Shown: positions 2,147-33,507 of the stretch, piece by piece
Numbering within the stretch: position 1 is the first letter of the stretch
Layout: each line of letters begins with the position of its first letter
Source: a virus
Length of the DNA: 50,698 bases
Virus record (IMG/VR): IMGVR_UViG_3300035698_027499
Coordinates: 1 to 50,698 of that record
Reading direction: 5' to 3' (one strand)
Program-made: the position numbers and the translations under genes
The notes under the pieces: model-generated
Told to the model about the DNA's origin: nothing
The model's database searches: none
The model's input: only the letters and a program-made list of their open reading frames with translations

Positions 2147-2323
2147 TCAATATCCTAAAATTTCCAAAATTGTGGTATTTTCCCAACCCGGAGCCAGAAA
2201 TTTAACATATAGTATTGCCACAACAATTGGCATAAGAGCAACACCAATTATGGTCAATATGTATAATATCCAATTGTAAGATAACCAATTCCAAATTCGT
2301 TTCATTGCCAAATCATATTTCAT
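2147..2323 (-). CDS. Small membrane protein (58 aa)
   Basis: The ATG at 2323-2321 overlaps the stop of the homing endonuclease gene as ATGA, and the frame runs 58 codons to TGA at 2149-2147, just before the GNAT start. The product has a short basic/aromatic N terminus (MKYDLAMKRIWNWL), then about 30 strongly hydrophobic residues, then FLAPGW and a short polar tail. This fits one long or two tight membrane helices with the N terminus inside. The coupled overlap upstream and the tight spacing downstream are the main support. I do not recognise the family. Confidence 0.55.
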   Translation of the reverse strand: MKYDLAMKRIWNWLSYNWILYILTIIGVALMPIVVAILYVKFLAPGWENTTILEILGY

Positions 2324-3762
2324 TCATTGTTAAATTTGTATTCATATAAATAATTCCCGCATCCGTATATTCGATATACCTTATTTTCCTGCGCAACTTC
2401 TTTCTCTGATTTTCCACTCTGGGCTCTGAATCTAAAACGATCATAGCGAACCACATCGTCAGTATACCAATAATTCAAACCAGTGTCCCTAATAAAGTCA
2501 AATCCATTACTCAAATAGACTTTTCCTTCACCAAATCTCAAATCGGCATAAGTTATTATTCCAGCAAATCCACCATCACTTGACCAAGAAATGCACTTTT
2601 TCAATAATTTAGAAAATCCACCCATAACCAAATATCCCCTCTTGGAAACAAATCTTCCAATTTCAATTTTTCCCTTATACTTGTTTCTTATCATGGGAAT
2701 TCTCAAAGCTATACCACATACAAGCTCACCATTATAAACCAAACCAAAACATATCCTATTTCTACCATATCCGTCAATATGGTTCTCTTCAAAAAACTTC
2801 TTGGCAACCTTCTTATCTATCTCAATTATTGAACAACTTCTTGCTCCAATTTTAATATCAGCAACTCCCAATCTATTTTTAATCATAGACTTTATAATCT
2901 CTTTCTTGTTGGACCATTCATCACCAAATATATGAAGCAATCTAATTCCTTTGTCCTTGCAAAGAATGGTCTTGTTTTTATGATACTTTTTATCATAACC
3001 TGGCGGTCCATCCTCTCTATGATAATATAGGCTATTATATTCAATCGCCAAATCCTTGTCTGGGATGTATAAATCCAATTCATATGGAGATATGATACTT
3101 CTATCTCCAGAGATAACCCGAAAACCTAATTTCTTTATGAATTCTAATATTTCAACTTGAGATATTGATGCATTAGGAAAACATTGCGAGCATAAAGAAC
3201 CTCTCTCAAAAGCCTGTAATGTCTTGCCTTGTTCTAAGTTGCAAATCACACATCTCAATAACAAATATTGATGTTGTCTTGAATAATATTCGTCATAATC
3301 CGTAAGATTAATAAATTCTTTTTGCCGTATTCCAATTCGACCCAGAAAATCTTCTTTGGAAATCTTTTTAATATTTCTTATTTTATCCTTAGATTCTTCC
3401 GAATGAGATCTTCCATAAAATGAATTGTTCTTTCCTTTTTGATTCTCTGCCTGCAACCTCATTCGTTCATCATTCTCTTTTGTCAATCCCTTATTCCAAG
3501 ACGTGGACTTACCACCCTTCTTGCCACCCTCTTTCATTGCCTCTCTCGCATGATTAATGCAATACCTCCTAAAAGAAAAATCCTTGTGACTATATCTTGT
3601 TTCTGAATCACAGATTAAACATAAAGGTCTTATTCCATCATGATAATAACGAATAATATAATCTTCAATCTTCATAAAATGCGTGAACTGCAAATGAATT
3701 CCAAACTCTCTTTTGTCTTCACTTTCATCTCCACATATTAAACATTTTTTATAAATGTTCAC
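2320..3762 (-). CDS. Homing endonuclease, Vsr/EDxHD-like nuclease with C-terminal GNAT-like domain
   Basis: The 480-residue protein is built from recognisable modules. The N terminus has Cys pairs (C7/C10 and C48/C51). A NUMOD3-like DNA-binding stretch (NKGLT, then GKNNSFYGRSHSEE at about 110-123) follows, then more Cys pairs near 171/174 and 191/194. A PD-(D/E)xK nuclease of the Vsr-like phage homing type spans about 200-298, with ELDLYIP near 228, IEYN near 240 and H248. The last third (about 300-450) resembles the GNAT-like domain often fused to such nucleases in phages (GLVYNGELV, FIRDTGLNYWY). It is a free-standing gene placed directly downstream of the major capsid gene, on the same strand. 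An inverted partial copy of the capsid gene end lies between the two. It has no obvious Shine-Dalgarno sequence. The role, homing into related phages, is inferred from the family. Confidence 0.78.
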   Translation of the reverse strand: MNIYKKCLICGDESEDKREFGIHLQFTHFMKIEDYIIRYYHDGIRPLCLICDSETRYSHKDFSFRRYCINHAREAMKEGGKKGGKSTSWNKGLTKENDERMRLQAENQKGKNNSFYGRSHSEESKDKIRNIKKISKEDFLGRIGIRQKEFINLTDYDEYYSRQHQYLLLRCVICNLEQGKTLQAFERGSLCSQCFPNASISQVEILEFIKKLGFRVISGDRSIISPYELDLYIPDKDLAIEYNSLYYHREDGPPGYDKKYHKNKTILCKDKGIRLLHIFGDEWSNKKEIIKSMIKNRLGVADIKIGARSCSIIEIDKKVAKKFFEENHIDGYGRNRICFGLVYNGELVCGIALRIPMIRNKYKGKIEIGRFVSKRGYLVMGGFSKLLKKCISWSSDGGFAGIITYADLRFGEGKVYLSNGFDFIRDTGLNYWYTDDVVRYDRFRFRAQSGKSEKEVAQENKVYRIYGCGNYLYEYKFNNE

Positions 3763-4007: not shown

Positions 4008-5882
4008 CTAGATTACATTCAAGTCAATTACCGTAACCGTTCCATAAAAATCGCTTCTAACCATTTTCTTACCGTATCTGGTCATAACGCCTTTGCGTGG
4101 AGTGAAATCTTCCTGCGCAAAGATGGTTGGAGTCACGATGAGCGGCACATAGGGTGCGTACACATAGCCAGTTTCGAGATAACTTCCACCTTTGAAGCCA
4201 ACAAGGACTTTATTGCGTGGGAAGTAAGGATCTTTGTAAACTGTGAATCTATTAGAAACTGTTCCAATATTTTCTGCACCAACGGTCATTGGTGTGCTGA
4301 CTTGACCTGAGCCATCGATCTTGTAGCTTGTTTTATACATTGAACTTTGTTCAAGTATGGTTGCTACGTCTGGACCTACGACACAGAAGTTACCGGATCC
4401 ACGAAGTGTTTTCTTGTGGATTTCATTAGCGACATCGCAGATGATTTCGACAAGAGTCTCATACCATTCACGGACTGTACCCGTAAACTGTGGACCAGTT
4501 GAGAGAGTAGAGGCAAGCTGTACTTCTGCACCAGTTTTCTTATTTAAGAATTTACCTGGGGCACGGCTCCAGTAATAGTTAGCGGCATTACCTTCCATTA
4601 GAAGATCGTTAAGAACTTCACGGTCGATATCAAGAGCAACCTGCTCGGATAGGATCTTGGTAAGCTCGACCTCGGCATCAAGGCTGTGGAAAGCATTAAG
4701 ATCCTGAGCAAGTTCTGGAGACCAGCGTGCTCTCAACTTACGAGAAGTTGCTACGACACTAATTTGCTCAATCTTGATGTCAATCTCAGGGATTGCTGGT
4801 GATGGAGCATCAATGGCGAAGTCTGACTCGAAAGATGGAATGGTGAGGGTATCACCATCAGTTCCACCGACATCAAGCGTATCAGAAACAGCCATTGAGA
4901 CATGAAGCTGATCAGCAAGCGTTGGAGGAACACCACCATTACTAAGACGAAGAATAAATTTAATATGATCTCCGCCAAGTGCATTCGGTGTGAATGCTGT
5001 TCCATCCCAATTGCCGCGCTCATTTTGGCGACGAAGGTTAAGAACACCACGACCACCTTGGAATGTTTCACCCCAAGCTTGGACGGCACCAGGGGCAGCA
5101 CCAAGGTCAAGAAGGGCAATCTGCTTTACTTCCTGAATATCTCCAGTTGGAAGTGCGCTCTGAAGTTCAGAGACAGCAAGGAAAAGGAAAGCATAATCCA
5201 AAGTATTTTGTTCAACTCTTTCCTGAAGATCAGGATCGAACATTACCCATCTAGCATTTGAGCCAGTGAAGTCTGTATTGGTATCTACGGCTGTACCTGA
5301 CACCCATGCTTCACTTACACCCGTAAATGCGCCAACATTATCGTTGGAAGCTGTTACGGTCAAAGATGCTGAATGTACTTTTGTGAATCCAGAACCCACA
5401 AGATCGTACTGTCCACCAGTTGCAAGCGAACCTGAACGGACACCTGCACCTACTGGGTTGTTATAAATGGAATCACCACGTGTATACACGGAATCAGTTC
5501 CATCTCCACCGACATTGCTGCCGTAAGTGTAATCTAGATAGAAGAGCAATCCAGCTGGAAGGCTCATTGGCTGAATTGAGACTAGCTCATTTGCAACCAA
5601 ACCACCGAATACACGACGGACAATGGGGAATGCGACGTTTGAGAAACCGCGCACCTGCCCAGAACTTGTGAGCGCTGCTCCGCCTGTTGAAAGGCTGGAA
5701 CTCTCACGAAGAACCTCGGCCGCTTGGTTCTCAAGCAATCTTGCCATGTTTTCTTTTCCATAGCCCACAAGTCCCTTTAAGAGACCTGTGCGGTTCCATT
5801 TTTCACTAAGTCGTCTTGCTTCGACGCCCAAGTGTCTTGATCTAATATCTTCTGTTAGTTTATCTAATGAGAATGTTGACAT
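4008..5882 (-). CDS. Major capsid protein (T4 gp23-like)
   Basis: The 624-residue protein forms the icosahedral shell. Early in the sequence it has the gp23-type stretch RLLENQAAEVLRE (about 48-60), then PIVRRVFGGLVANELVSIQPMSLPAGLLFYLDY (positions about 86-118), the start of the HK97-fold core as seen in T4-like capsids. 'LLE' at 49-51 resembles the (I/L)xE sites used by the T4 prohead protease, so an N-terminal propeptide may be removed there; this is inference. It is about 100 residues longer than T4 gp23, the extra being a Gly/Ser/Thr-rich insertion after residue 120. AGGAG precedes the ATG. It lies directly after the scaffold gene and ends in an intrinsic terminator, as expected for the last gene of the head operon. 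Confidence 0.93.
   Translation of the reverse strand: MSTFSLDKLTEDIRSRHLGVEARRLSEKWNRTGLLKGLVGYGKENMARLLENQAAEVLRESSSLSTGGAALTSSGQVRGFSNVAFPIVRRVFGGLVANELVSIQPMSLPAGLLFYLDYTYGSNVGGDGTDSVYTRGDSIYNNPVGAGVRSGSLATGGQYDLVGSGFTKVHSASLTVTASNDNVGAFTGVSEAWVSGTAVDTNTDFTGSNARWVMFDPDLQERVEQNTLDYAFLFLAVSELQSALPTGDIQEVKQIALLDLGAAPGAVQAWGETFQGGRGVLNLRRQNERGNWDGTAFTPNALGGDHIKFILRLSNGGVPPTLADQLHVSMAVSDTLDVGGTDGDTLTIPSFESDFAIDAPSPAIPEIDIKIEQISVVATSRKLRARWSPELAQDLNAFHSLDAEVELTKILSEQVALDIDREVLNDLLMEGNAANYYWSRAPGKFLNKKTGAEVQLASTLSTGPQFTGTVREWYETLVEIICDVANEIHKKTLRGSGNFCVVGPDVATILEQSSMYKTSYKIDGSGQVSTPMTVGAENIGTVSNRFTVYKDPYFPRNKVLVGFKGGSYLETGYVYAPYVPLIVTPTIFAQEDFTPRKGVMTRYGKKMVRSDFYGTVTVIDLNVI
4026..4060 (-). repeat. 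Inverted repeat partner in the capsid gene 3' end (arm B)
   Basis: This is the functional copy: it encodes VRSDFYGTVTVI at the C terminus of the major capsid protein. Its reverse complement recurs at 3830-3865 with one small interruption. A transcript running through both arms could fold into a long hairpin. Confidence 0.85.
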
Positions 5883-11320: not shown

Positions 11321-12295
11321 TCACAAATATAACAAATTGATTTTGTCCCATTTTCTTTTAAGTAAAGGCAAATCCATACAATTTATTGTTTTAATTAAAG
11401 AATAAGCACGATATCCCTTTATGGAATATCTGTAAATTCCCTTCTCCTTACTAACATTCGCTAATCTCTTGCCCTTCTTAGGTAAAAACAATTCATCAAA
11501 TATATTTTTAATTTCATCTAAAAATTTTTCCGTTCCATTTATTCCACAAAATAAATACTTTTTATTTTTAGTCAAACTAATATATCCATCTCCATCAATG
11601 TATCCGGCTATAAATGCTAATTTTTGTTTCAAATTGTCAAATAATGGAAATTCTAATTTATGCGTCTTTCTAGGAACAAAGCCAAAATTTTTTGATAATT
11701 GAGAACACATTTCTTTAGCATTACTTACCCACACAGAACAATATCTAAAATATTCTCCGTTCTTCTTTATCTTATTTCCTTTTTTATTTCCAACAATTTG
11801 TCCATCATAATTGATAAATTTAACAAATCTATAAAGGTGTTCAATATCTTTTTGAGATAATGATAATTTTAAAGCTTTGTTATTAACATTGCATCCATCA
11901 GCAACTAAAAACCCAGCCCAATAACAAACAGTCAGATCTTCCTTACTTTCAAATGAATTTATATTATGAGAATAATATCCATCCCTTTTATAATCAATAC
12001 TATCTAAACCAAATTCATTAATTTTCTTAACGATGCTTTGAGGATGTTTGCCAAGACCACTAACAAGATCTGCTTTAGATATTTGAAAATAATTTTCCTT
12101 AAGAAAATCTATCTCACCATCTGTCCAATCATGAGTTTGAGTTAATTTATATCTTGACTTTGCTCTTTTTATTGATTCGAAAGTTTTATCTGGGAATATA
12201 CTCATGAGTTCCACATTGGAACTCCGAAAGTTATTTTTCAATAATTCAATTTCTTTATTAGTCCAAAATTTATAATTTCGCTTTTTATCTACCAC
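11321..12295 (-). CDS. LAGLIDADG homing endonuclease, free-standing
   Basis: The 324-residue protein has two dodecapeptide motifs, CYWAGFLVADGCN (about 124-136) and AFIAGYIDGDGYI (about 227-239). Each ends in the Asp-Gly that supplies the metal-binding acid, and the 100-residue spacing is typical of single-chain two-repeat enzymes. The N-terminal 100 residues hold two Trp-containing SANT/Myb-like helical repeats (KFWTNKEIELLK and HDWTDGEIDFLK) that probably help recognise DNA. It is not inside an intron or intein: it starts 7 nt inside the 3' end of the prohead protease gene, with its own start and stop. The protease C terminus is therefore made by the gene junction. Homing next to a conserved head gene is the inferred purpose. 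Confidence 0.88.
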   Translation of the reverse strand: MVDKKRNYKFWTNKEIELLKNNFRSSNVELMSIFPDKTFESIKRAKSRYKLTQTHDWTDGEIDFLKENYFQISKADLVSGLGKHPQSIVKKINEFGLDSIDYKRDGYYSHNINSFESKEDLTVCYWAGFLVADGCNVNNKALKLSLSQKDIEHLYRFVKFINYDGQIVGNKKGNKIKKNGEYFRYCSVWVSNAKEMCSQLSKNFGFVPRKTHKLEFPLFDNLKQKLAFIAGYIDGDGYISLTKNKKYLFCGINGTEKFLDEIKNIFDELFLPKKGKRLANVSKEKGIYRYSIKGYRAYSLIKTINCMDLPLLKRKWDKINLLYL

Positions 12296-12906
12296 AATAA
12301 AATGTCATTTAAAACTCTATCAATTCTATCAGACTTATTGAAGAAACTATTAATCTCTTTAAGATCGAGAGATGTAATCTCTCGTCCTTCTTTCATAACA
12401 AAAGCTCCTGGAGTCGATGGTTCTGTAACTAGATCCCAACAGATCAATTGAAAATCATTTTGTACAACATTATATCCATTTGGATCTCGTTCCGTTGAAC
12501 CAACTCCGCGGGAAGATATGCCAATTGTCATTCCTGCCTCAACCAACTTAATAACGTTGGTGCCATGCGGATCCAAAGGCAAAATCTTTAATGTTCCAAA
12601 AACAATTCCTTTATCGTCCATATAAACTTCAGTCATAGCATGACTTACTGTTTGAAATTCAATAACAGAACTGTCGGTATGGTCCAAAGAACCATAAGCC
12701 CTTTTCTCCCTAATCAGTTTCTGATAATTTCTAACTTCTTTTTCTAAAATATCTTTTGGATAGATTCTTCCATTTTGATTAACAGTATCTGCTCTCTGTA
12801 TGATGCCCTTAAGATACACAGCATCACTCTCTTTACCAGTTGTTGTAATCTCTTTTATAACTTCCACTTTGTAATCAAAGCGATTATATTCGTCAAGTAA
12901 TTTCAT
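12289..12906 (-). CDS. Prohead core protease (T4 gp21-like)
   Basis: This 205-residue serine protease matures the prohead by cutting scaffold and capsid proteins. The His motif is SLDH (H76) and the Ser motif GISSRGVGS (about 129-137), followed by CWDLVTEPSTPGAFV (about 156-170), the conserved layout of the gp21 family. The length is close to T4 gp21. It lies between the portal side of the module and the small head genes, the T4 order. AAGGA lies 6 nt before the ATG. Its last codons overlap the LAGLIDADG gene, so the homing insertion may have replaced the original C-terminal residues. Confidence 0.9.
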   Translation of the reverse strand: MKLLDEYNRFDYKVEVIKEITTTGKESDAVYLKGIIQRADTVNQNGRIYPKDILEKEVRNYQKLIREKRAYGSLDHTDSSVIEFQTVSHAMTEVYMDDKGIVFGTLKILPLDPHGTNVIKLVEAGMTIGISSRGVGSTERDPNGYNVVQNDFQLICWDLVTEPSTPGAFVMKEGREITSLDLKEINSFFNKSDRIDRVLNDILLW

Positions 12907-12915
12907 TTTATTTCC

Positions 12916-13758
12916 TTATGCTATTTCTTCTTTTAATTTGGTTACATCAAGAAACTTCTCAACAGTACTGTCGGTAATATCTTCAATATTTTCTGCCAAA
13001 ATTAAATCCTTGGCCTTAGATAGTTTTTCCTCGACATATTTATTCTTCCCTTTGTTTTCGCTCAAATAAACATCGATCTTCTCAAGTGTGTCTTTTTTGA
13101 TCAAAGATATATGTTCATGAAGTCTTTCCCTATTCTCGTCTGATTCTTGTGAAAAAACATATGTTTTAATTAATTTAATTTGTTCTTCTGATAAATTGTT
13201 ATAATACTTATCGTTCAGCTTTTTAATCATAAGCTTTTCAACTAATGGATCGGCAGCACTAATCGCTTCCTCATCTAAAGTTGGAATTATTTTTTCAGAT
13301 AACAGCCATTCTTTCAATTGTTCTTCGTATTGCGCAACCTGAACAATATCGCTTGAACTGACTCTCCATTCATTGAGAAGTGATTGAATCGTTGCATAGA
13401 TTTTATATTCAGGAATTCTTCTATCGTAAAAAACCTTCTTACTTAGGTTGTGATTAATGCTCCTAATAAGAAGCGATTTTTCATAATCTAATTTTTCATC
13501 ATTATAATTTTTAGATTCTTGTTTGGCAGCATTAATAATTTTATCGGCCACAGACTCATTCTTAACTGTTGTCGCCACCAATGAATGAAACAAACGAAAT
13601 TCTTTATAAAGTTCTGTGTTTCTTTTGAAGTTTGTTCTTAATATATTTAAAGCAGTATCTCTTCGCTTATCATTTCCTTCAATAAGGCTGTCTGAAACAG
13701 TGCGGACAAGAAATTCGTATATTAGTCCAGTATTTCTTTTTTTATTATGTCTTGTCAT
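12916..13758 (-). CDS. Unknown helical protein between portal and protease (280 aa)
   Basis: The 280-residue protein is predicted entirely helical, rich in Lys, Glu, Asn and Ile. It has a basic N terminus (MTRHNKKRNTGLIYEFLVR) and a Leu/Lys/Glu-rich C-terminal third that may form a coiled coil. No enzyme motif is visible. Its start lies within the last 14 nt of the portal gene, and the protease follows 10 nt after its stop, so it is tightly coupled to both. T4 has the small core proteins gp67 and gp68 here; this one is longer, but a prohead core or assembly role is a fair inference. My impression is that other T4-like marine phages have a similar gene at this spot. Confidence 0.72.
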   Translation of the reverse strand: MTRHNKKRNTGLIYEFLVRTVSDSLIEGNDKRRDTALNILRTNFKRNTELYKEFRLFHSLVATTVKNESVADKIINAAKQESKNYNDEKLDYEKSLLIRSINHNLSKKVFYDRRIPEYKIYATIQSLLNEWRVSSSDIVQVAQYEEQLKEWLLSEKIIPTLDEEAISAADPLVEKLMIKKLNDKYYNNLSEEQIKLIKTYVFSQESDENRERLHEHISLIKKDTLEKIDVYLSENKGKNKYVEEKLSKAKDLILAENIEDITDSTVEKFLDVTKLKEEIA

Positions 13759-16700
13759 TATCGCTATCGCTCTCTTTTATTTCATAAATTCCATCTATTT
13801 CTTCATCAACAATTTCTGAGATAACATCTTTAACACTCTTAGCCTTTTTTACAATTTTGGGCGCCATTAGATTTGAACCATCATTTATACTTATGCTTTT
13901 TGTAATTGATTCTATAGTCTGCTTTAGATCATTGCTCAATCTTGTCCTAATATTTTCAGAATCTTCAATAGCAGATATTTGTCTATCTATCGCATCCGAT
14001 AATTTAAATGTGTTTCCTTTGCGGAATTTCTTCGCAAACATGTCTCCATAATGACGATCCTTTACATCCAATGCATCATTAGGGTTCGGAACTTTCATGC
14101 CCTTGGACCCAGGACTCTTAGTCCGACTTGGTCTTAAATTATTGTGCTTATATCTAGATAATTGATTCTGTTGATGAACAGGCTTATATTCGTCTTTTTC
14201 ATCATAATCTGCTTCGATAATCTCATCTTCATCGTCGGTGATTAATGGACCGACCGCTTTGTCATGTGCAAAAAGATCCTCTTCGTCTTCTTCTGCACCA
14301 ATTTCAGGTGCTTCCTCTTCGTCTCCGCCTTCTCCACCCTCTTCAGGAATATCAAAGTCCAAACCACCACCGCCTCCACCAAAGTCACCACCACCAAGAC
14401 CTCCGCCGCCTTCTCCACCTTCGGCTGCACCAGTAGAAATTTGTTCCATCTTCGCTCTTCTTATGAGTTCTTCAGCTTGATCCTCAAACATTTGCTCAAT
14501 TTGCTGATCAGTTAAACCAATAACTTCTTTATAAAGCCACTTTTCAGTAAGCATTCCTTCAGGTCTTGTTCCCAAAATTTCAAGCTTGGTCCTAATTCCT
14601 TCAAGCTTTTGTTGTTGAGCCATCGTCGATGGATTAGATAACTGTATTCTAAAATTAACAATATCTTCTCCAGTATATCCGTGGGCAGTCAAATGAATGG
14701 CAGCAATCTTATTTAATTCTGAAATGATGATTTGCTGAATTTGCTGAATCGATCGCGCAAAACGTATATCCTCCTGTGCGAGGTTAGATTTTGAACTCAA
14801 TGCCTCTTCAAATCCCAAATAAGCCTTTGGAACCTTAAGGGCAGCAAAAAGTTTTCTTTGGATATATTCGACATCATCAATAGCCGTCGTGTTCGCACCA
14901 CCAGCCAAGGTATCAATGCGTGTTCCAGTTTCAGTTCCACGCACCGCCAAAAAGTAATCAATATCAACGGACCAAGGGTTATACCGCAAATCTACGCGTC
15001 CAGCAGATTTGTCAACAACTTCTTGACTTTTCAATGTAACTCTGGCTTGTTCCATTACGTTTGGAACATCAGCTGGTGGAGTATTGGCAACATCAATGTA
15101 GAACACTCTTCTTTCAGGTGCACGAATTACACGATAAACTAACATGGCATCTTCTGCCATTATTAATTGTCTCCAGATACGTCGAGCACTTTCTAAGACA
15201 GAAGATCCATATGGAAGAAACGTATCATTTCCAAGCAATCGAAAATGAATAACTTGCCAATTTTCAAGGATCTGATTGCTCTCATTTACCCATCTAAATC
15301 TGACAGCGAATGGATCGTTTGGGTCATATCCTTCTTCTCTTTCGATTTCATTTACAGGAATTGGATGAACATTTATGACACCATATTCGGGCGAAACATC
15401 AGTCAGGAGGAAGAAATCCCCATATTTACACAAGTTACGAACCCACGGTCTTGCATTAAATTCAAAATTTAATGTATCATAATATAACTCTTCTAAGATT
15501 CTCTTAATTTTTGGATTCTCTGATTGAATATGCAAAGAAAATCCTTTTTCATCTTTCGCTACCGTCTCATCGGAGTATATGTCCAAAGCACTTGCTATCT
15601 CGGGTGTATACTCCATTTCACTTTGGAAAACCATAACAAAATCAAGTACTTGCCCTTTTTTGGGATTGTTTTTATTTTTACATCCGACTGCAAGATTGTG
15701 ATATTTCGGTACCGTTATGTTATAAACAACATCTTCCTTTTCAATAAATTCTATAGATGAAACCTTATGGTTATTATAATGCTCAACCCATTCATGAAAG
15801 GAATTATATCCCTCTTTTTTTATGCGAGATAGAACTTTGTTGGCGGTAGTATTTGCAGCACTAGCTAACTCCCTATAAGTCATGCCCTTTTTGTAGCTAG
15901 AACATATGTTTTGATAAGTAATTGTTTTGTCAATAATGGCTATCCTACCAACGCCATCAACAACTTTAAATCCATTACTTCTTTTAAAGTCGGACCAGGT
16001 ACCATGTCCATTACTACCCAGCCTTCTTCTAATAGCGTTAGGAGAACAATTCAACTTTTCACAAAGTTCATAAATATTCTCGCAATCTTTACCAGACTCT
16101 AAAATAACTTCTATTTTCGGAGATTTTGTCTCAATACAAATGCTTTCATGTATAATGTGATCTTGAATACTGTTTCTTTTGGACTTAAAGTCCAACCAAT
16201 TTTTAAAGCCTTTTTCTCTCAGCCTTCTCTTTAGTACATTTGCATCTACGCCAAGAACCTTTTTGACTTTACTCATAGTAAAGTCATTTTCAATTGCTAT
16301 TGACAATATTTTATCAAATATAATATCAGTTCTTTTGCAGGGATTATTTTTTTTCATCCATTTTGAATGTTTTTCATTTGGCTTTCCAAATTTATTTTTA
16401 TTATTAAGTTGAGCATGATAGCGATTATGCTCATATCTGTCCATAATCTTTAGATTCTCTAAAAGATTATTTGAACTTTTAAAGTCTAAATGATGAACTA
16501 CTTCATTTTCTTTTAATGGTCTTATAAAATATTCTGCTACAATTTTGTGCTCTTGTGTCCAGCCCCCAGCAGTAGCATCATCTTTATTTATTGTATAAAT
16601 CCATTTATAACCAGAATCATCAAATTCTCTAACATTAAAAGGCATTAGTGCGTCATAGCTACATAAATCTTGAGCTTCACATGGAGAACCATCTCTAAGC

Positions 16701-17767
16701 ATGAATTTGTGATCTGGTGTTGATATAACGTGTCCGCCGGTATCAAAGTTTACTTTTACAAGCTTTTGTTTTTCCCCACCCTTAGTAAGCCTGGGGCTGT
16801 GTGCTTCTGTTATTATGATTTTATCTTGTTCTTGACTATATGAATAAACATGAATTATCTCACCAGAATGGTTTTCGGCCAATTCCTTTATTGTAAAACA
16901 TCCCTTTGTCGTGTATACGAGTGTACTACCATGTAGGCAGAAATCTGCATAACGTGAATTGTGCACCAGAACAGTATTTGTAGCGAAATTTTCGTAACCA
17001 TCAACAGTTAGATCGCCAACTTCACACTCTCCATAAGGTTCAACCGAAACAACCTTATGGTTTCCCTGTAATTTATAACCCAAAGGCAAACCATCAGGTT
17101 CATCCATTCCCGGAAGTCGTCCAATACATTCGGGACCATGCTCACGATCTTCCATTGTCATTATCAGATCAAGTTGTCTCGAAATAAGGGCGCGACGTTT
17201 TCCAGAAGAATTTTGCAATTTACTGTGAATGTACTCAAAATCCTCAGTTGCCTGTGACTTATTTTGCTGCTCCTCAAATGGCATCATTAAATTATTTAAA
17301 AGTAGATCTCCAGCATCTCGATAGCTTCCATCTCGCATCATGCATGGATGATCTGGTGTGCAGATAAGGTGTGAGCCATCATCAAATGTAACCTTGACTG
17401 TGTCTTTTATACCAGAAGTTCTTGGATGGTGCGCCCATGCTGGTACAATGCATCCATTATCGTGATCGTAAGCATAAACAATAAACTTTTCACCATCAGG
17501 ATATTGTTTAATTAATTCTTTAAGAGTTAATCCTCTTTCAACTCCAGGTATTGGTATGATAGTTTCTGTTGATATGCATAATCTGTCAAATTGACCATAT
17601 GCGTTCAAGCTATTGCCATATACGGTTGCGGTACTTTTTCTAAAAACATCGATAGCACTTGATCTAACATTGCCGGTATCGAAGCCTCTGACTTTTCTTT
17701 TTACGAGTGGTCCAGATCGAAACAGTGATGTTAGTCTAGAGAATAAATTTTGTCTACGTGATGCCAT
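13745..17767 (-). CDS. Portal protein (T4 gp20-like) containing two inteins
   Basis: The 1340-residue precursor is a portal protein interrupted twice. Removing residues 64-270 and 277-715 leaves a 694-residue portal in which FDRL, SRYADF and SEMEYTPEIASALDIYSDE (residues 716-734) join into the conserved T4-type N-terminal portal motif. Beyond this lie the stem/clip region (NARPWVRNLCKYGDFFLL near 771-788; AERRVFYIDV further on) and SKSNLAQEDIRFARSIQQIQ, all typical of gp20. The C terminus carries an unusual Gly/Glu-rich acidic stretch (about 1105-1165) before a polar tail. The portal is the dodecameric DNA gate at the capsid vertex, and it docks the terminase encoded three genes upstream. No Shine-Dalgarno sequence precedes the ATG; TATATT lies 10 nt upstream. 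Function requires both inteins to splice. Confidence 0.93.
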   Translation of the reverse strand: MASRRQNLFSRLTSLFRSGPLVKRKVRGFDTGNVRSSAIDVFRKSTATVYGNSLNAYGQFDRLCISTETIIPIPGVERGLTLKELIKQYPDGEKFIVYAYDHDNGCIVPAWAHHPRTSGIKDTVKVTFDDGSHLICTPDHPCMMRDGSYRDAGDLLLNNLMMPFEEQQNKSQATEDFEYIHSKLQNSSGKRRALISRQLDLIMTMEDREHGPECIGRLPGMDEPDGLPLGYKLQGNHKVVSVEPYGECEVGDLTVDGYENFATNTVLVHNSRYADFCLHGSTLVYTTKGCFTIKELAENHSGEIIHVYSYSQEQDKIIITEAHSPRLTKGGEKQKLVKVNFDTGGHVISTPDHKFMLRDGSPCEAQDLCSYDALMPFNVREFDDSGYKWIYTINKDDATAGGWTQEHKIVAEYFIRPLKENEVVHHLDFKSSNNLLENLKIMDRYEHNRYHAQLNNKNKFGKPNEKHSKWMKKNNPCKRTDIIFDKILSIAIENDFTMSKVKKVLGVDANVLKRRLREKGFKNWLDFKSKRNSIQDHIIHESICIETKSPKIEVILESGKDCENIYELCEKLNCSPNAIRRRLGSNGHGTWSDFKRSNGFKVVDGVGRIAIIDKTITYQNICSSYKKGMTYRELASAANTTANKVLSRIKKEGYNSFHEWVEHYNNHKVSSIEFIEKEDVVYNITVPKYHNLAVGCKNKNNPKKGQVLDFVMVFQSEMEYTPEIASALDIYSDETVAKDEKGFSLHIQSENPKIKRILEELYYDTLNFEFNARPWVRNLCKYGDFFLLTDVSPEYGVINVHPIPVNEIEREEGYDPNDPFAVRFRWVNESNQILENWQVIHFRLLGNDTFLPYGSSVLESARRIWRQLIMAEDAMLVYRVIRAPERRVFYIDVANTPPADVPNVMEQARVTLKSQEVVDKSAGRVDLRYNPWSVDIDYFLAVRGTETGTRIDTLAGGANTTAIDDVEYIQRKLFAALKVPKAYLGFEEALSSKSNLAQEDIRFARSIQQIQQIIISELNKIAAIHLTAHGYTGEDIVNFRIQLSNPSTMAQQQKLEGIRTKLEILGTRPEGMLTEKWLYKEVIGLTDQQIEQMFEDQAEELIRRAKMEQISTGAAEGGEGGGGLGGGDFGGGGGGLDFDIPEEGGEGGDEEEAPEIGAEEDEEDLFAHDKAVGPLITDDEDEIIEADYDEKDEYKPVHQQNQLSRYKHNNLRPSRTKSPGSKGMKVPNPNDALDVKDRHYGDMFAKKFRKGNTFKLSDAIDRQISAIEDSENIRTRLSNDLKQTIESITKSISINDGSNLMAPKIVKKAKSVKDVISEIVDEEIDGIYEIKESDSDNDKT
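15623..16939 (-). mobile_element. Intein 2 in the portal protein, with HNH endonuclease and HTH-like repeats
   Basis: This intein is residues 277-715 of the precursor (439 aa). Block A begins CLHGSTLVYT, with catalytic Cys277. Block B has STPDHKFMLRDG (His353). Block F is VVYNITVPKYHNLAV. The junction is VMVFQ|S, with Gln715 in place of the usual Asn and Phe instead of the penultimate His; a 15-residue polar insertion sits just before it. Between the splicing halves lies an HNH-type nuclease (about 401-452: VVHHLDFKSSNN and NLKIMDRYEHNRYH). Three related helix-turn-helix-like repeats follow (ending LDFKS at about 530, SDFKR at 596, HEWVE at 662) and probably give the long DNA contact needed for homing. 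The following extein residue is Ser716. Confidence 0.87.
16958..17578 (-). mobile_element. Intein 1 in the portal protein (mini-intein, no endonuclease)
   Basis: This intein is residues 64-270 of the precursor (207 aa). It begins CISTETIIPI (Cys64), has block B CTPDHPCMMRDG (His140), and ends with block F ECEVGDLTVDGYENFATN and block G TVLVHN before Ser271, a fully canonical class-1 intein. The central region (about 168-235) is too short for an endonuclease and shows no LAGLIDADG or HNH motif, so this is a mini-intein that can splice but not home by itself. Its splicing domain resembles that of intein 2 (TPDH, RDG and a following LMPF segment are shared), so the two probably share ancestry. 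Only residues 271-276 (SRYADF) separate it from intein 2. Confidence 0.88.
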
Positions 17768-18698: not shown

Positions 18699-20324
18699 TT
18701 ATGAAAAGAGCCAGTTCCACCTTTTAGCAACAACTTGCTTTTGGACGCGTGGTGCTCCAAACCCAGAGCCATTACCGGCAACGGGTAAAAATACATTTAC
18801 CTCATCCTTTCTTGAAGGTTCTGAGATGATCTCATCTAGTTTAATTGATTTAGATTCCATAGCATCTAATATTGACTTGGTGTGTTCATCAGCAAACTGA
18901 TCATATTCTTCTACATCTACAAGCCATAAGCCAATAGCTAATGCCATAACCAAGTCATCATTTTCTCCCTTGCTTGCACCGACTTTATGTTCATTGATCC
19001 AAACAAATGTCTTTAATTCTTTTAGTAATCTTGTTGAATAGATTTTTATCTGTTTATTTCTTAATAGTTCTTCCATTTTTGTAAGAATTATTTGTTTCTT
19101 TTGTCCGGTTGTAAATATTCCTAAATCTCCACTTGGTTTTTGAATATTGTTTTGTGTGGATATGGCGGTCCATATATCTAAAGTCTTTTTCTTGTTGTTA
19201 TAAATTCTCGGATAAGAAAGAGAACAAAGACGCTGAATGGTGGCATAACCTACATTGTTATTTTCTGGACACACTAATGCTGTGTTGTATGATAATCCTA
19301 TTTCATTAATAAGCTCTGCAAATCTGTCTGGCGGCAGTTTGCCTTTGTACTCTGCAGCAATTTCTCCAGCGGTTGCATCAATTACATGAAAAGCAGAAAA
19401 GTCTTTTGCATCACCTCTTGATGTGTCAGCAGATAAAATATATTTGTGACCCAACAAAGGCTCTCTCCAAATATGAACATTCCTATCTGGACCAACCCTC
19501 CTAATCGGTGAATGCATAAGTGATAATTCTCTAATCCAATCAATAATGGTAGCGTCGAGATATGTATCGCCGGACGCCTGAAAGTCGCACTCGTATTCTT
19601 GAGCAATCGCTTTCTTGGACATTCCTTTTGTTTCTTCCGCAAACCATTTTTCATCATGTTCTGGATGTACCGACCAATGTAAATTGGTTGCAGTAAATCC
19701 ATTAATGTTATCCTCTGCATCAGAGTATAGTTTCCAGAAAGTCTCTTTCGCTCCATTGGGCGTGGACAAAATTATGGCTCGGCCGCCCGTGTTCATAGTC
19801 GGTTTAAGACCTGTCCAAATTGTTCCAAAATCTTTAACAAAGGCAGCCTCATCAACAATCAAAAGATTGATAGATTCTGACCGACCAGCATCTGGTGACG
19901 TTGGAACAGCTTTTATTTTTGATCCTTTGCTCGTTTCAATAAGTGTTTTATTGATTGTTACTTCTTGAATCTTTAACCAATCTGGCATGCTTTCAATGAG
20001 GAATTTACACTTATCAATAAAGTTTTTAGCAACATCTTCTTTAGTTGCAATAACAAATACTTTCTGATTTCCATAGAACATAATTAACCAAACAGCATAA
20101 GCTGCCGTGATCGTTGATAATCCAAGCTGTCTAGCTTTAACAATGATATTGTGTCTATTCTTATTGAAAGATTTAACTATGTCGTCTTGAAATGCAAATG
20201 TCTTAAATGGTATTACACCACGATCTAGTGTAACAACTTTACAATACCTATTAAAGAAATAGATTGGATCATTTTTGCACTTTCTAAACTCTGTCGCATG
20301 ACGTGCTTTGATGCCAACGGCCAT
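18699..20324 (-). CDS. Terminase large subunit (T4 gp17-like)
   Basis: This 541-residue DNA-packaging motor has both expected domains. The ATPase has Walker A KARQLGLST (63-71), Walker B LLIVDEAAF (154-162) and coupling motif STPNG (187-191). The RNase H-fold nuclease has SADTSRGDAKDFSA (D300), CPENNN (E354) and GENDDLVMALA (D456/D457). The order and spacing match gp17, though it is shorter than the 610-residue T4 protein, lacking most of the N-terminal extension. It contains no intein or intron, unlike the neighbouring portal. AGGAG lies 9 nt before the ATG, which immediately follows the stop of the preceding gene. A small terminase subunit is not evident; the 128-residue gene just upstream is a positional candidate only. 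Confidence 0.95.
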   Translation of the reverse strand: MAVGIKARHATEFRKCKNDPIYFFNRYCKVVTLDRGVIPFKTFAFQDDIVKSFNKNRHNIIVKARQLGLSTITAAYAVWLIMFYGNQKVFVIATKEDVAKNFIDKCKFLIESMPDWLKIQEVTINKTLIETSKGSKIKAVPTSPDAGRSESINLLIVDEAAFVKDFGTIWTGLKPTMNTGGRAIILSTPNGAKETFWKLYSDAEDNINGFTATNLHWSVHPEHDEKWFAEETKGMSKKAIAQEYECDFQASGDTYLDATIIDWIRELSLMHSPIRRVGPDRNVHIWREPLLGHKYILSADTSRGDAKDFSAFHVIDATAGEIAAEYKGKLPPDRFAELINEIGLSYNTALVCPENNNVGYATIQRLCSLSYPRIYNNKKKTLDIWTAISTQNNIQKPSGDLGIFTTGQKKQIILTKMEELLRNKQIKIYSTRLLKELKTFVWINEHKVGASKGENDDLVMALAIGLWLVDVEEYDQFADEHTKSILDAMESKSIKLDEIISEPSRKDEVNVFLPVAGNGSGFGAPRVQKQVVAKRWNWLFS

Positions 20325-21291: not shown

Positions 21292-24200
21292 CTATTCTTG
21301 ACAGATATAAGAATCCTTGCCTTTTTTAGTAATCTCTAACAAATGATCTGCCATTGACTTAATTGATTCTTTATGGCTTATAATAATAATATTGCCAAAC
21401 CATTTTTTCAATGAATTTATAACACTTACAAATGAATCAATATGGGATTCATCCAGACCATCAAATGCTTCATCTAAAGCAAGAAAATCTGGTTTTGCTA
21501 AACTGGAAGCATTTAATAGTCCAACACGTATAGCTAAAGCTGCTATAGCCTTTTCCATGCCACTACATAATTCTATTGGACGTTTACTGTCTCCATAATT
21601 GATATAAATTTCAAGCTTATCACTTTCCTCTTCAACATCGAGTTCTATATCAAAATTGACTGCGCCTCGTAAAACATTAGAAATTTCTGCATTTAACCCA
21701 GGTAAATCCATTCTAATAATCTGGTTTGGAATTCCCTTATTTCCAAATGCGTAAGCTAATTTTTCATAAATCTTATATTTTTCTTGTATATCTTCAAACT
21801 TATCTTTGTCTTCTTTCATCTTCTTTGTTTCGGCGCCTATAGAACCTAATCTTCCAGCTATTCTTATTCTTTCTGAGTCTTTATCTTTTATATCTTGTTC
21901 AACCTTGGATAGCTTTAATTTTATATTTTTTGTTTCTTTAGTTACATCGCTTGAAACATTGGCAACCAAATACGTTAATTCATTTTTCTCTTTTTTCAAT
22001 CTTTCTTTATTGTATTCTAGTTTGGTTTCATAATTCTCCACAGACAAAATAGAAATCTTTTTTACTAGACTCATTTCTTTTTCACATAGAAAGTCATATT
22101 TTTTAAGCTGATCATGATAATCTTCATCATCAACAATAAGAATTTCAAGCTTTTGTACCTGTTTTTCTAAGCTTTCAATTAATTCTTTTTGTGGTTTTAT
22201 ATTGTTTTTTTCTTGGTGTGCATCAATAATATATTTGCATGTTGGATATTGATCTCCGCATGGAACAACATCCAATTTAGAAACAGTTTTTTTCTTAGAT
22301 TTAAGAATATTTTTCTCAGAAGATAAATTTTCTTTAAGTTTGATAATTTGATTATCTAATTCAATTTTCTTCTTCAATTTAGCTTTAATCGTCTTTACTG
22401 GGATATTTCCTTTTCTGGTATAAACATCCTCTAAAGTTGATTCTAATTCATATTTTGTTTCAGATGTTATTTTGATTTGTTCTTTAATCTTTTCTTGTTG
22501 TTCTTCCAAGTCTGAAACAAATCTTTGTTTATTCTCTACTTGTTCTTCAGTTATAAGTTCATGATCGGTACGTGTAGAAAGCTTTTCACGCAACTTATCT
22601 CTTATGGCTTCATCAACCTGTAAAGCATCACTAATATCGATTGTAGATTTGTTGAGTTGCTTCTCTTCATTTTCTAATTCCATTAGGCTTGTATCCCAAT
22701 CAATAGGATCAAATAGTCTCAAAGCACTTTTGATACCTTTGAAATCATTTAATGATTTTGTATGAAATTCCTGTAAAACATGCAAATCTCTAAATTTATA
22801 GAGTTTCTTTTTTCTTTCTGTAGTTTTGTAATCTTCTATAAAAGATTCTAATTTCTTTTGAGGAGCCAAAGCTGTAATTTTAAAATCATCTATTGTTCCA
22901 ACAATTTTACGTATTTCTTTATCAGTTTCTGTTGGAGTTTCTCCATTAAGGCTTCTTATCTCATTTCCAAATTCATCCACCACCAAAAAATCAATGCTTC
23001 CTTTAGAACCCAGTCTTCCATCTGGTTTGTCAATTCTTTGAGTTTTTCTATAGATTGAATAATGAGTTCCGCCAACACGAAACATAAATTTACAAGAACA
23101 TTCTGTTTTTCTTATGTTTACGATCCCATGATTGTGATTAATGTTGATTTCTCTATCAAGTTTTCCAAATAGAGCATAAGCCATTGCTGCCAATATCGTT
23201 GATTTGCCTAATGCATTTGGACCAAATATTCCAATAATACCACCAAGAGAACGGAAATCAATGACATTGTCTTCTCCATAATTCATTATATTACTAAATT
23301 CCATTCTTACTGGAGACCAAATAATGTTTCGATTTACTTCATCTTTCTCAGGGTTTAAATCTTTAACATAATTCCACAAGGTTTCTTCTATAGTTTTCCA
23401 CTGTTGTTCCGTGAAATCATCTTTGTTATAAAATTCTTTCAAAAGTTTCATTATGACGGATGGTTCTCTCAAATTTCTCTTGAGACTATTCGCCATATCT
23501 TTATCAATTTGATTTACAACCTTTTCATCATATTGAGGAACAATATGATTTGATTTCTTGACTCTTTGTATTTCGTTAAATATCTGGGAGAAATCTTTTT
23601 GAGATAAAGGTTCCGAGTGATAGATTCTAAATCTGGATCCGTCAGGATATTTAGAAACTTTTTCCATAGTTTTTGATATGTTTCCTGCCCATTTAATTGT
23701 GACAAATGGTTTTCTATTTTCTATTTCATGTAATGTAACATCAAAATCGTATTTGCTTCTAATGTCCCAAATTAGAAATCCGTGTCCATCAATGTTTTCT
23801 CCAAAATCTTTTTGTACAGTTGAGCCACAATAGGCAATTCTTTTATCTTTATCTAAAAATTGATGCCTATGAATGTCTCCAAGTAAGGCAAAATCATAAT
23901 CTTTGAAAAAGTTTGGTTCAACTTCACCTTGCATATGATATCCAATATCTGTTATTGCCCCCTGTACAGAACCGTGAAAAAGTGCAATATTGATTCTTCC
24001 CTTTTTAGGTTTAACATCTTTCCAACCTTTTTCATCAAAAGGAGAAAAAACACATAAAGAAAATTCGTCATCAATATCATAGACGTCAGATTTTTTATAA
24101 AGCTTTATTCTGTCGTCATTTAACGCATCAATAATTGGAGAAATAGCATCTTGTCTATTTCTGTTTGCAAGATTGCCATCATGATTTCCAAGAATAATAT

Positions 24201-24423
24201 CTGTTATTGCTATCTTTGAAAAATTTCTAAACATCCATACAAGACAATCAACAACTTCAGGTGTGATTCTTTGTGTTTTTTCATCAACGATATCACCACA
24301 CATGATGATTCGATCAACTTTTAACATTTTTGCTTTTCTGAATATCTCAGTAAAAACTATCTTATATTCTTCATGTCGTATAAGTGGACGCCAATGAATA
24401 TCGGAAATATGTAATATTTTCAT
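21292..24423 (-). CDS. Fused Mre11-Rad50 recombination nuclease (T4 gp47-gp46 in one chain)
   Basis: The 1043-residue protein joins two T4 recombination subunits. Residues 1-300 form the gp47/Mre11/SbcD metallophosphoesterase: SDIH (7-10), GDIVDE (43-48), GNHDGN (79-84), FHGS (149-152) and GDIHRHQ (182-188). From about 370 comes the gp46/Rad50/SbcC ATPase: Walker A GPNALGKST (401-409), a long coiled coil with a hook-like PCGDQYPTCK (C722, C729), signature ELCSGMEKAIAAL (951-963), Walker B FLALDEAFDGLD (980-991) and ISHKE (1015-1019). All catalytic residues are intact. The hook cysteines are seven apart rather than in a CxxC. The complex processes DNA ends for recombination-dependent replication. 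In T4 the two are separate genes; here nuclease and ATPase are fixed one to one. A primase gene ends 9 nt upstream. Confidence 0.93.
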   Translation of the reverse strand: MKILHISDIHWRPLIRHEEYKIVFTEIFRKAKMLKVDRIIMCGDIVDEKTQRITPEVVDCLVWMFRNFSKIAITDIILGNHDGNLANRNRQDAISPIIDALNDDRIKLYKKSDVYDIDDEFSLCVFSPFDEKGWKDVKPKKGRINIALFHGSVQGAITDIGYHMQGEVEPNFFKDYDFALLGDIHRHQFLDKDKRIAYCGSTVQKDFGENIDGHGFLIWDIRSKYDFDVTLHEIENRKPFVTIKWAGNISKTMEKVSKYPDGSRFRIYHSEPLSQKDFSQIFNEIQRVKKSNHIVPQYDEKVVNQIDKDMANSLKRNLREPSVIMKLLKEFYNKDDFTEQQWKTIEETLWNYVKDLNPEKDEVNRNIIWSPVRMEFSNIMNYGEDNVIDFRSLGGIIGIFGPNALGKSTILAAMAYALFGKLDREININHNHGIVNIRKTECSCKFMFRVGGTHYSIYRKTQRIDKPDGRLGSKGSIDFLVVDEFGNEIRSLNGETPTETDKEIRKIVGTIDDFKITALAPQKKLESFIEDYKTTERKKKLYKFRDLHVLQEFHTKSLNDFKGIKSALRLFDPIDWDTSLMELENEEKQLNKSTIDISDALQVDEAIRDKLREKLSTRTDHELITEEQVENKQRFVSDLEEQQEKIKEQIKITSETKYELESTLEDVYTRKGNIPVKTIKAKLKKKIELDNQIIKLKENLSSEKNILKSKKKTVSKLDVVPCGDQYPTCKYIIDAHQEKNNIKPQKELIESLEKQVQKLEILIVDDEDYHDQLKKYDFLCEKEMSLVKKISILSVENYETKLEYNKERLKKEKNELTYLVANVSSDVTKETKNIKLKLSKVEQDIKDKDSERIRIAGRLGSIGAETKKMKEDKDKFEDIQEKYKIYEKLAYAFGNKGIPNQIIRMDLPGLNAEISNVLRGAVNFDIELDVEEESDKLEIYINYGDSKRPIELCSGMEKAIAALAIRVGLLNASSLAKPDFLALDEAFDGLDESHIDSFVSVINSLKKWFGNIIIISHKESIKSMADHLLEITKKGKDSYICQE

Positions 24424-31298: not shown

Positions 31299-32519
31299 TT
31301 AGAAGTCAAGCCTAATTCTAAATCCAATATCTTTTTCTGGGTTCTTTTCAACCGGACGACTAAGTTTTGCAACAGCCAAAAGGTTGTTACCCGTATCATA
31401 AATTCCAACGGAAGTTACAAAAGTAAATGTTTGTTGTACATCATCTTGACCTTCATCAATAACAACAATTCTATTATCACTATCAACAAATGTTGGATTA
31501 GACGAATAATTGAATTCATCAGCAGTTGCTCTAGCAAATACTAACGTCGAATTTATAACAGTTTGATTCTGAAAACTCATTGCAGTCAATGAACCCGAAC
31601 TAAATCTGCAAGAAGCTAAATGATCAATAATATTGTCAAGAGAACCCGATGTCAAAAAATCAGGAATAAATCTAGCATCTGGGTTTCCAGCCACTTCAGT
31701 GTCTCCAATAAATGTTTCACCGGCAGCTAACTCAGGGTTCGCCCCCGTTGGGCTCATAGCAGCAATTGTCCCAGAAACATGTTCCGTTCCCGACAAAACC
31801 TTCGCCAAATCCAAAACAAGAATTCCTTGATCTCCAAAAAGCAAACCAACATTTCTGTTACTATCTGAAGAATCTATGAGATTTGATACTTTTCCACCAA
31901 AAGAACTTTCTTGGTTAGATGCCGCTCCAGCATCTGTATAAATCTTAGCTCCATTTTCTGAAGTTGCATTTAGATTTGTTTGATGTAAACCATTCGTAGA
32001 AGAAGTTTGATAGAACCTCATAGCAAATGTTTCTTTTTTAATTCCATCTCTAAAAAATAACCTTTTCAAATCAATGAAAAAAGCTTCATCAATGCCGTTC
32101 GCCCCAAGAGCCGAACCAAATGGGGCAGCAAATCGTAGATCTGCATTACCAAGCAATAAAAGAGAATGTTGTCTGTATATGTCAATTTTTTCTCTCATCT
32201 GAAGAGATGTCGACGGAAATAACAATTTTCCAGCACTATCTTCACCACTTTTAATGTCTTGTACAGTTGAACCACTAAAATAGAGTCCGACCGTCATATC
32301 CATAACAGAGTTTGCTGTCTGAATAGAAAAATCTTGATCATATACCGTCTGAAATAAAGACGACGTTACTCCTGGCCCAACTCCACCAGAAACCCATACC
32401 TGATATTTCTTTCTGGTGTCAGAACCACTTACATCTTCTTGGGTTACATCAATTAGTTGATTCAAAACAGATCTAGCCGACTTTATGTCGTTAGCACTTA
32501 TTTCTTTAAATATAGCCAT
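31299..32519 (-). CDS. Tail/baseplate structural protein (406 aa)
   Basis: The 406-residue protein is probably part of the virion. It starts MAIFKEISANDIKSARSVLNQLIDVTQEDVS (31 residues, positions 1-31), has VSGGVGPGVTSSLFQTVYDQ and many Gly/Ser/Thr-rich loops, and ends LAVAKLSRPVEKNPEKDIGF followed by RIRLDF. That C-terminal segment parallels the end of the downstream 795-residue protein. It has no catalytic motif or membrane helix. AAGGA precedes the ATG, which overlaps the end of the HNH endonuclease gene by 14 nt. I have an impression of similar proteins in marine T4-like phages. A baseplate wedge or tail-terminator-like role cannot be decided from the sequence. Confidence 0.72.
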   Translation of the reverse strand: MAIFKEISANDIKSARSVLNQLIDVTQEDVSGSDTRKKYQVWVSGGVGPGVTSSLFQTVYDQDFSIQTANSVMDMTVGLYFSGSTVQDIKSGEDSAGKLLFPSTSLQMREKIDIYRQHSLLLLGNADLRFAAPFGSALGANGIDEAFFIDLKRLFFRDGIKKETFAMRFYQTSSTNGLHQTNLNATSENGAKIYTDAGAASNQESSFGGKVSNLIDSSDSNRNVGLLFGDQGILVLDLAKVLSGTEHVSGTIAAMSPTGANPELAAGETFIGDTEVAGNPDARFIPDFLTSGSLDNIIDHLASCRFSSGSLTAMSFQNQTVINSTLVFARATADEFNYSSNPTFVDSDNRIVVIDEGQDDVQQTFTFVTSVGIYDTGNNLLAVAKLSRPVEKNPEKDIGFRIRLDF

Positions 32520-33507
32520 TTATTTTCCTTAAAATCTTTCTTGTTTTGTATCCATAAGTATTTGTTTTTTGATGGCATTTTATACATAGTGTTCTTCCAT
32601 TGCCTACATTCCATAATTCTTTAACGTTAACTGCATCAATGGTGTTAGAAATATTATTTTCATTAACTATTAATGCAAATGGTTTAATGTGGTCTACATG
32701 TAGTTCGCACTTTGCCTTATTACACATTGTACATTTCCATTTATCTCTTGTAAAACAATACCTTCTCCATTCCTTGTAGGATGAAAGTAGCCTAATCTTT
32801 TTATATAGACTTGTTACACCACCATTCCAATTAGGATTTTTAGAACCCCGAATATCGTCCCTGGCCTTTCCATAAAGTGGATGTTTTTCACCACTAATCG
32901 TTTTTCTAAATATTGACATTTTTTCTCTAGCTTCTTTACTCATTTTCTTACCAATACTAGAATAAGATATTTTATTTTTTATAATCTCTGATTGCTGTGG
33001 ATACTCTGTCCCATATTCCCTTATTGAAGTTTGCTTTCTTTTCTCTTTTATAAGTTTTTTTTCTAAATCAGTCTTATCGTGACATAATTTCAATTGTTTA
33101 CTTTTTACCTTTTCATTTTTCATTGGATTGGAAAATCCATATTTTTCAATATTAGTTTTTTTTGTCTTTTCTTGCAAATCTTTTGTCTGTAAAGGAAACT
33201 CGCATCCATACTTCAGTAAATTTGTATTTTTTACCTTTTCTTTTTGTTTGTCATTTTTCATATGGTGTTTAGTTCCATATTTTATCATTGACGTATTTTG
33301 AGATTTTTTATATAAAATACCATCTTTTTTCATAGATTTTCTTGAACATTGAAATGAGCAAAAATGAAAATCTTTGCTCATTTTTTCTTTAATACATCTG
33401 TTGATGACAAAATTATATTGACAATGATCGCATTTGGCCATTAGTACTTTATTTGTTGTTGATCTATTTCCTACATTAGAAATAATAATATGTTCACTAA
33501 TAATCAC
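32506..33507 (-). CDS. HNH homing endonuclease, free-standing
   Basis: The 333-residue protein has a C-terminal HNH domain (RRYCFTRDKWKCTMCNK, CELHVDHIKPF and RTLCIKCHQKTN; C259/C262, H270/H273, C308/C311 and H312). Before it are four related repeats containing K/EYG (about 76, 100, 122, 165: IKYGTKHHMKN, LKYGCEFPLQT, EKYGFSNPMKN, REYGTEYPQQS), a known DNA-binding arrangement in phage homing enzymes, then a NUMOD3-like GEKHPLYGKA (about 206-215). An N-terminal Cys cluster (CDHC, CSFQC) may bind zinc. The start is GTG with AAAGGA 5 nt upstream. It lies between two structural genes and overlaps the next by 14 nt: a typical intergenic homing insertion. Confidence 0.88.
   Translation of the reverse strand: MIISEHIIISNVGNRSTTNKVLMAKCDHCQYNFVINRCIKEKMSKDFHFCSFQCSRKSMKKDGILYKKSQNTSMIKYGTKHHMKNDKQKEKVKNTNLLKYGCEFPLQTKDLQEKTKKTNIEKYGFSNPMKNEKVKSKQLKLCHDKTDLEKKLIKEKRKQTSIREYGTEYPQQSEIIKNKISYSSIGKKMSKEAREKMSIFRKTISGEKHPLYGKARDDIRGSKNPNWNGGVTSLYKKIRLLSSYKEWRRYCFTRDKWKCTMCNKAKCELHVDHIKPFALIVNENNISNTIDAVNVKELWNVGNGRTLCIKCHQKTNTYGYKTRKILRKINGYI

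Follow-up and report, generated by a model that had tools for sequence, protein, structure and literature searches.

Two inteins six residues apart in a T4-type phage portal gene with recurrent insertion sites

The portal gene and its two inserts

The IMG/VR virus record IMGVR_UViG_3300035698_027499 spans 50,698 nucleotides, and this whole stretch is the window of our analysis. On its minus strand, an open reading frame of 1340 residues (13745..17767) encodes the precursor of a T4-type portal protein (gp20) that carries two inteins. The frame matches the Portal_T4 profile (E 2.5e-70) as well as the T4 gp20 structures 3ja7 and 6uzc, and it contains two Intein_splicing matches in Pfam and two intein N-terminal plus two intein C-terminal regions in NCBIfam. 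All parts of the gene are on the same minus strand. The N-extein (residues 1-63, 17579..17767), recognized by alignment to the N-terminus of uninterrupted portals, ends in FDRL. Next come intein a (residues 64-270, 207 amino acids, 16958..17578), the 18 bp extein hexapeptide SRYADF (16940..16957), intein b (residues 277-715, 439 amino acids, 15623..16939) and a C-extein (13745..15622) that starts SEMEYTPEIASALD, as assigned by Pfam and by alignment with uninterrupted portals. A sequence-only reading of the window had described two splicing domains at these residues, each starting with Cys and followed by Ser, with only SRYADF between them. Translation of the pieces confirms this arrangement, and the coordinates are exact by translation, Pfam, NCBIfam and an automatic gapped mapping onto 19 uninterrupted portals, which recovered the borders of both inteins blind. 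In a second contig, L009 (L numbers are our handles for relatives), the double insert recurs with a single residue changed.

Because SRYADF is contiguous in homologues free of inserts, we assign it to the extein. Scanning viral contigs with the spliced portal yielded 49 relatives. One of them, L008, is uninterrupted and 84% identical and reads YDRL-SRYADF-SEMEY-TPEIASALD with no break; RLSRYADFSEMEYTPEIASALD is likewise unbroken in homologues without inserts. We also aligned the spliced window portal with 18 uninterrupted portals. The close ones carry the motif unbroken, and all 19 rows share Y66, D68 and M72 (numbered as in the spliced portal). Thus, the hexapeptide is present in uninterrupted homologues rather than absent from them, and the earlier proposal that splicing rebuilds a conserved portal motif (FDRL-SRYADF-SEMEY) around a shared six-residue extein agrees with L008-type portals, which match the predicted product.

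Intein a (CISTET...VLVHN) has the full set of class 1 residues, with C1, a block B TPDH, the VHN end and S+1. It sits in frame with an exact junction, and it is missing from homologues. With a linker of 70 residues it is a mini-intein, and we found no recognizable remnant of an endonuclease in that linker (best E 4.3). Intein b (CLHGST...VMVFQ) is also in frame and has C1, TPDH and S+1. Its last two residues are Phe-Gln, with Phe replacing the penultimate His. The b intein of L010 has the same end, and the other relatives at this site end in Lys-Asn, Ser-Asn or His-Asn. Gln is a known cyclizing variant of the terminal residue, and inteins that lack the penultimate His or end in Gln can splice, some slowly and some well (PMC4031507). 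A separate intein in L137, at a position that we call site e (portal residue 285), also ends in Gln (ITYQ|S). As its lineage is not that of intein b, the terminal Asn was lost more than once in these portals.

Within the window pair, a putative endonuclease domain is found in intein b only. The putative HNH core covers residues 407-449 (16421..16549), where the match to HNH_3 is weak (E 0.003; 17.6 bits versus the Pfam cut-off of 24.8). The H-H, N and H residues of the motif are invariant among five b inteins, and intein b additionally carries helix-rich repeats that resemble DNA-binding elements. Folded alone, it gives a poor model (pLDDT 55), and its splicing region reaches moderate confidence in a model of the tandem.

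The neighboring genes, also on the minus strand, support the identification of the portal. They include the terminase large subunit (18699..20324, Pfam), a prohead protease (12289..12906, Peptidase_S77, E 6e-24) and the major capsid protein Gp23 (4008..5882). Three probable free-standing homing endonucleases lie among the head and tail genes, at 11321-12295 (LAGLIDADG), 2320-3762 (homing/HNH family with NUMOD3) and 32506-33507 (DUF7487 with NUMOD3), and one of them directly adjoins the prohead protease. Elsewhere, a single open reading frame at 21292-24423 joins a metallophosphatase (SbcD-like) to a Rad50/SbcC-type ATPase and resembles a fusion of T4 gp47 and gp46.

Insertion sites in the portal family

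We located intein junctions with degenerate DNA pattern scans and automatic mapping of inserts on uninterrupted references, and removed near-copies. Three insertion sites fall in the 11-residue stretch of FDRL|SRYADF|SEMEY|TPEI: site a (DRL|SRY), site b (ADF|SEM) and site c (MEY|TPE). Sites a and b are 6 residues (18 bp) apart, and sites b and c 5 residues (15 bp). In the window, site c lies at the end of the pentapeptide SEMEY (15608..15622, minus strand) and is empty; it is filled in L010, L020, L178, L182, L033, L034 and others. Judged by sequence, the window portal is an intein hotspot with two of its three sites occupied.

Every combination of these sites has a carrier. All three are filled in one portal, L010. 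Sites a and b are occupied together in the window and L009, in L043, whose third intein is at site d, and in L180, which adds one at site e and whose intein a is cut short by the contig edge. Sites b and c are paired in L020/L025, and sites a and c in L178/L179 (plus site e) and L182. Single occupants are found at b in L042, L044 and L144/L145, at a in L181, and at c in about a dozen portals. By these alignments, the a+b arrangement of the window is not unique and recurs in distinct viruses. Because the frame runs open through the inserts in every carrier examined with full insert coverage, we take them to be inteins and rule out introns. In L044, stops are confined to the C-extein, downstream of its intein.

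Outside this stretch, the gene has more insertion sites, near residues 285, 343-349, 88 and 132. The precursors reach 1842-1936 residues in open frame, compared to roughly 600-700 for uninterrupted relatives, so these portals are likely to be misannotated by automatic pipelines. L137-L139 share an identical arrangement in three contigs, an open reading frame of 1842 amino acids with three inteins of endonuclease length (397, 403 and 414 amino acids). In the huge phage LR756508 (L003, 2710-6870), two mini-inteins of 150 and 141 amino acids lie 13 residues apart and are accompanied by a large third intein. The inteins at site e of L178 and at the residue-132 site of L104 start with Pro, carry Cys as the fourth residue of block F (VYCMTV and AYCMEV) and are sisters in the tree described below; they resemble class 3 inteins, in which the first residue is not a nucleophile. 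Two contigs binned as Bacteroidota, L196 (a metagenome-assembled genome labelled Chitinophagaceae) and L199 (labelled Flavobacteriales), have single intein-like portal inserts near residues 345 and 221, respectively.

A maximum-likelihood tree of the splicing domains groups the inteins by insertion site and not by host gene copy. All eight site-a inteins form one clade (100/97), all 18 site-c inteins form another (99/96), and the two clades are sisters (97/89), a relationship suggesting that a single lineage moved at some time between these sites, which are separated by 33 bp. At site b the tree shows at least two gains, as the lineage of the window, L010 and L043 is separate from that of L020, L141, L144 and L180. 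Because inteins a and b belong to separate site-specific clades, the neighbors in the window are independent arrivals rather than products of duplication. We compared the window with L010 using pS and pN alone, because saturated dS makes omega rough, and obtained pS/pN of 0.75/0.25 for intein a, 0.74/0.18 for intein b and 0.71/0.14 for the C-extein. By this measure, both inteins and the exteins are clearly under purifying selection, with amino-acid change held down in both inteins.

Probable independent excision and proposed mobility of the pair

We think it probable that the window portal holds two hotspot inteins that are excised independently, intein a perhaps having been spread by co-conversion. 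Each would be a class 1 intein that splices autonomously in cis, folds a Hint domain of its own and leaves in either order, and both excisions together would restore FDRL-SRYADF-SEMEY. Intein a, with its His-Asn end, probably splices faster than intein b, whose penultimate His is absent. Intein b may be the slower step because some inteins with such an end splice slowly (PMC4031507).

For mobility, the HNH endonuclease of intein b would cut an empty allele, and repair would copy intein a along with b because it is only 18 bp away; we put this step just short of an even chance. In the same way, and with the same reserve, intein a would persist and spread by co-conversion with b after the loss of its own endonuclease. 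Exon co-conversion in T4 and the rescue of the defunct I-TevIII by mobE are precedents for such co-conversion (PMC2988022). A stronger proposal makes a and b one composite mobile unit, in which one break always co-converts both, one endonuclease serves both, and losing one endonuclease avoids the damage that two breaks at a distance of 18 bp would do. We hold it tentatively, at a little under an even chance. Neighboring inteins are known to hinder one another in homing, and the question of whether a single endonuclease suffices for both has been raised (PMC10643990); a composite unit, if true, would answer the question of whether neighboring inteins hitch-hike. Hitch-hiking of intein a is attractive and has precedents, and it is not established.

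The distribution of endonucleases bears on this proposal. The a inteins of L010 and L180 also lack an endonuclease. Because the deletion ends differ and the trait changes at least eight times on the splicing-domain tree, the losses look separate. With categories assigned by hand, in a sample gathered with junction patterns and hence not random, 7 of 19 distinct inteins that have a neighbor within 15 residues lack an endonuclease, compared to 3 of 33 others (Fisher p = 0.026); the figures for multi- and single-intein proteins are 9/33 and 1/20 (p = 0.07). Phylogenetic pairing of related rows gave 2.0 pairs for and 0.7 against the link between packing and loss, too few informative pairs for significance. 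At the DNA level, the window and the empty allele L008 share their longest identical run, of 32 nt, across site b (portal codons 65-75). As a homing footprint it is only suggestive because the triple and double carriers L010 and L043 have no comparable identity peak at site b.

The closest competitor, a credible account that we place below an even chance, shares the splicing part of our preferred reading and differs on mobility only. Under ordinary coexistence, independently splicing inteins share a hotspot, and intein a lost its endonuclease by normal decay without hitch-hiking or any interaction. Such decay is common and well documented in fixed inteins (PMC10643990), the phylogeny-aware test shows no significant association, and inteins that are not tightly packed can lack an endonuclease too (L141 g, L178 e and L004 h). 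However, among 20 single-intein proteins only L004 is without an intact endonuclease, and several separate losses adjoin an endonuclease-bearing neighbor within 33 bp.

Several points also weigh against independent excision with co-conversion itself. Intein b deviates at its last two residues, its HNH match scores under the Pfam cut-off and, on its own, it yields a poor fold. The association of packing with endonuclease loss was classified by hand and loses significance once related rows are paired. In archaeal MCM, where both endonucleases are active, co-homing of two neighboring inteins was found to be inefficient (PMC10643990). Finally, the splicing and cleavage activities are predictions from sequence.

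Coupled splicing as an unlikely alternative, and comparison with known systems

The sequence-only reading had proposed that, with so small an extein shared by the two reactions, splicing order or mutual dependence may matter, and that mis-splicing from Cys64 to Ser716 could remove both inteins together with the hexapeptide. We consider this coupled or misdirected splicing, in which there is a fixed order or the N-half of a acts with the C-half of b, perhaps to regulate portal assembly, very unlikely. Its attractions are an intervening extein of only six residues, the relatedness of a and b (43% over the N-halves) and the weak-looking Phe-Gln end, which could delay intein b. In relatives, however, sites a, b and c are each occupied without the others, and a+b, b+c, a+c and a+b+c also occur in open frames. 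Because each site is found occupied alone, no intein needs its neighbor, and the sequences imply no order. Furthermore, both window inteins keep six native flanking residues whether the neighbor has spliced or not. Since the Y and D of the hexapeptide do not vary among portals, its loss should be harmful.

Structure prediction adds little to the case for cross-splicing, which would require a chimeric splicing domain. We modeled the tandem from a four-row alignment of true a+b carriers. A larger alignment was discarded because it placed the N-halves of site-a inteins on window intein a and their C-halves on intein b, and this split would have faked cross-pairing between the two. In the resulting model the splicing cores have moderate confidence (blocks about 60-89), confidence is low elsewhere, and residues 271-274 of the SRYADF link are below 50. 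Over about 207 columns, the model from this shallow alignment matches the solved mini-inteins 6frg, 4o1r and 1mi8 (TM by target 0.81-0.87). The match corresponds to intein a in length and fits an intein a that folds alone as one domain, with the Hint fold that the model predicts for it; we count this against coupled splicing. Neither this model nor the divergence of a and b lends support to the Cys64-to-Ser716 reaction; the model is compatible both with cross-pairing and with its absence. We would therefore replace forced interdependence, which the sequences do not support, with independent splicing in a recurrent hotspot, and regard composite homing as an interesting possibility.

Still less plausible is an intein b that no longer splices, leaving a portal that is non-functional or used unspliced. 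The lost His-Asn end and the weak HNH score fit this idea. On the other side, the b intein of L010, 72% identical, retains Phe-Gln, with pN far under pS, and the portal is essential in tailed phages. Moreover, inteins ending in Gln are able to splice (PMC4031507). We give negligible weight to a tandem duplication of one intein, whose sole support is the similarity of a and b and which we rejected because they are not closest relatives on the tree but lie in separate supported clades, each with same-site inteins of other viruses, or to an assembly artefact, given that the double insert is present in several independent contigs.

More interesting than splicing order is what the packing means for homing at the DNA level, with insertion sites separated by 15-18 bp. 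One gene family contains single, double and triple alleles, some with endonucleases and some without, and offers a ready set of constructs for co-homing tests. The family also suits tests of how two or three inteins splice around a five- or six-residue extein, and of the lower limit of extein size.

Several inteins in one gene are already known (PMC10643990, PMC7886860 and PMC1635734). The haloarchaeal MCM helicase inteins MCM-a and MCM-d resemble the window pair in that a single conserved gene holds two inteins at sites close to each other; as in the portal family, single and double alleles are mixed, and endonuclease degeneration and co-homing are in question. They differ in that the gene is an archaeal helicase, the endonucleases are LAGLIDADG enzymes and the sites lie in separate motifs of the ATPase domain, their spacing not being given in the text consulted (PMC10643990), whereas the portal gene is a phage head gene with a putative HNH-type endonuclease and sites 15-18 bp apart, up to three of them occupied in 11 extein residues. 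Cluster C1 mycobacteriophages likewise have an intein in a phage portal gene. They belong to another phage and host group, and the accessible part of the report treats the portal as one class of intein-bearing protein and describes no adjacent pair (PMC5050341). The TerL of crAss-like phages has two inteins in one DNA-packaging gene, but there the extein pieces between inteins are described as separate coding fragments, and no micro-extein is reported in the accessible text (PMC7886860). In an engineered tandem, the Ssp DnaE and Ssp DnaB mini-inteins stand head to tail across a peptide linker and each is still active; it was built for cleavage and mutated against ligation, and shows only that tandem Hint domains can fold and react (PMC4339811). 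In the T4 nrdB intron, a defective element (I-TevIII) is moved by a neighboring endonuclease (mobE) through co-conversion, as proposed here, but this system pairs a group I intron with a free-standing endonuclease rather than two neighboring inteins (PMC2988022). In the literature searched, which left subscription journals mostly outside, we found neither a natural pair of inteins with only five or six extein residues between them nor a triple in an 11-residue stretch. We conclude that these elements are ordinary inteins of known kind, and that it is their packing that is new.

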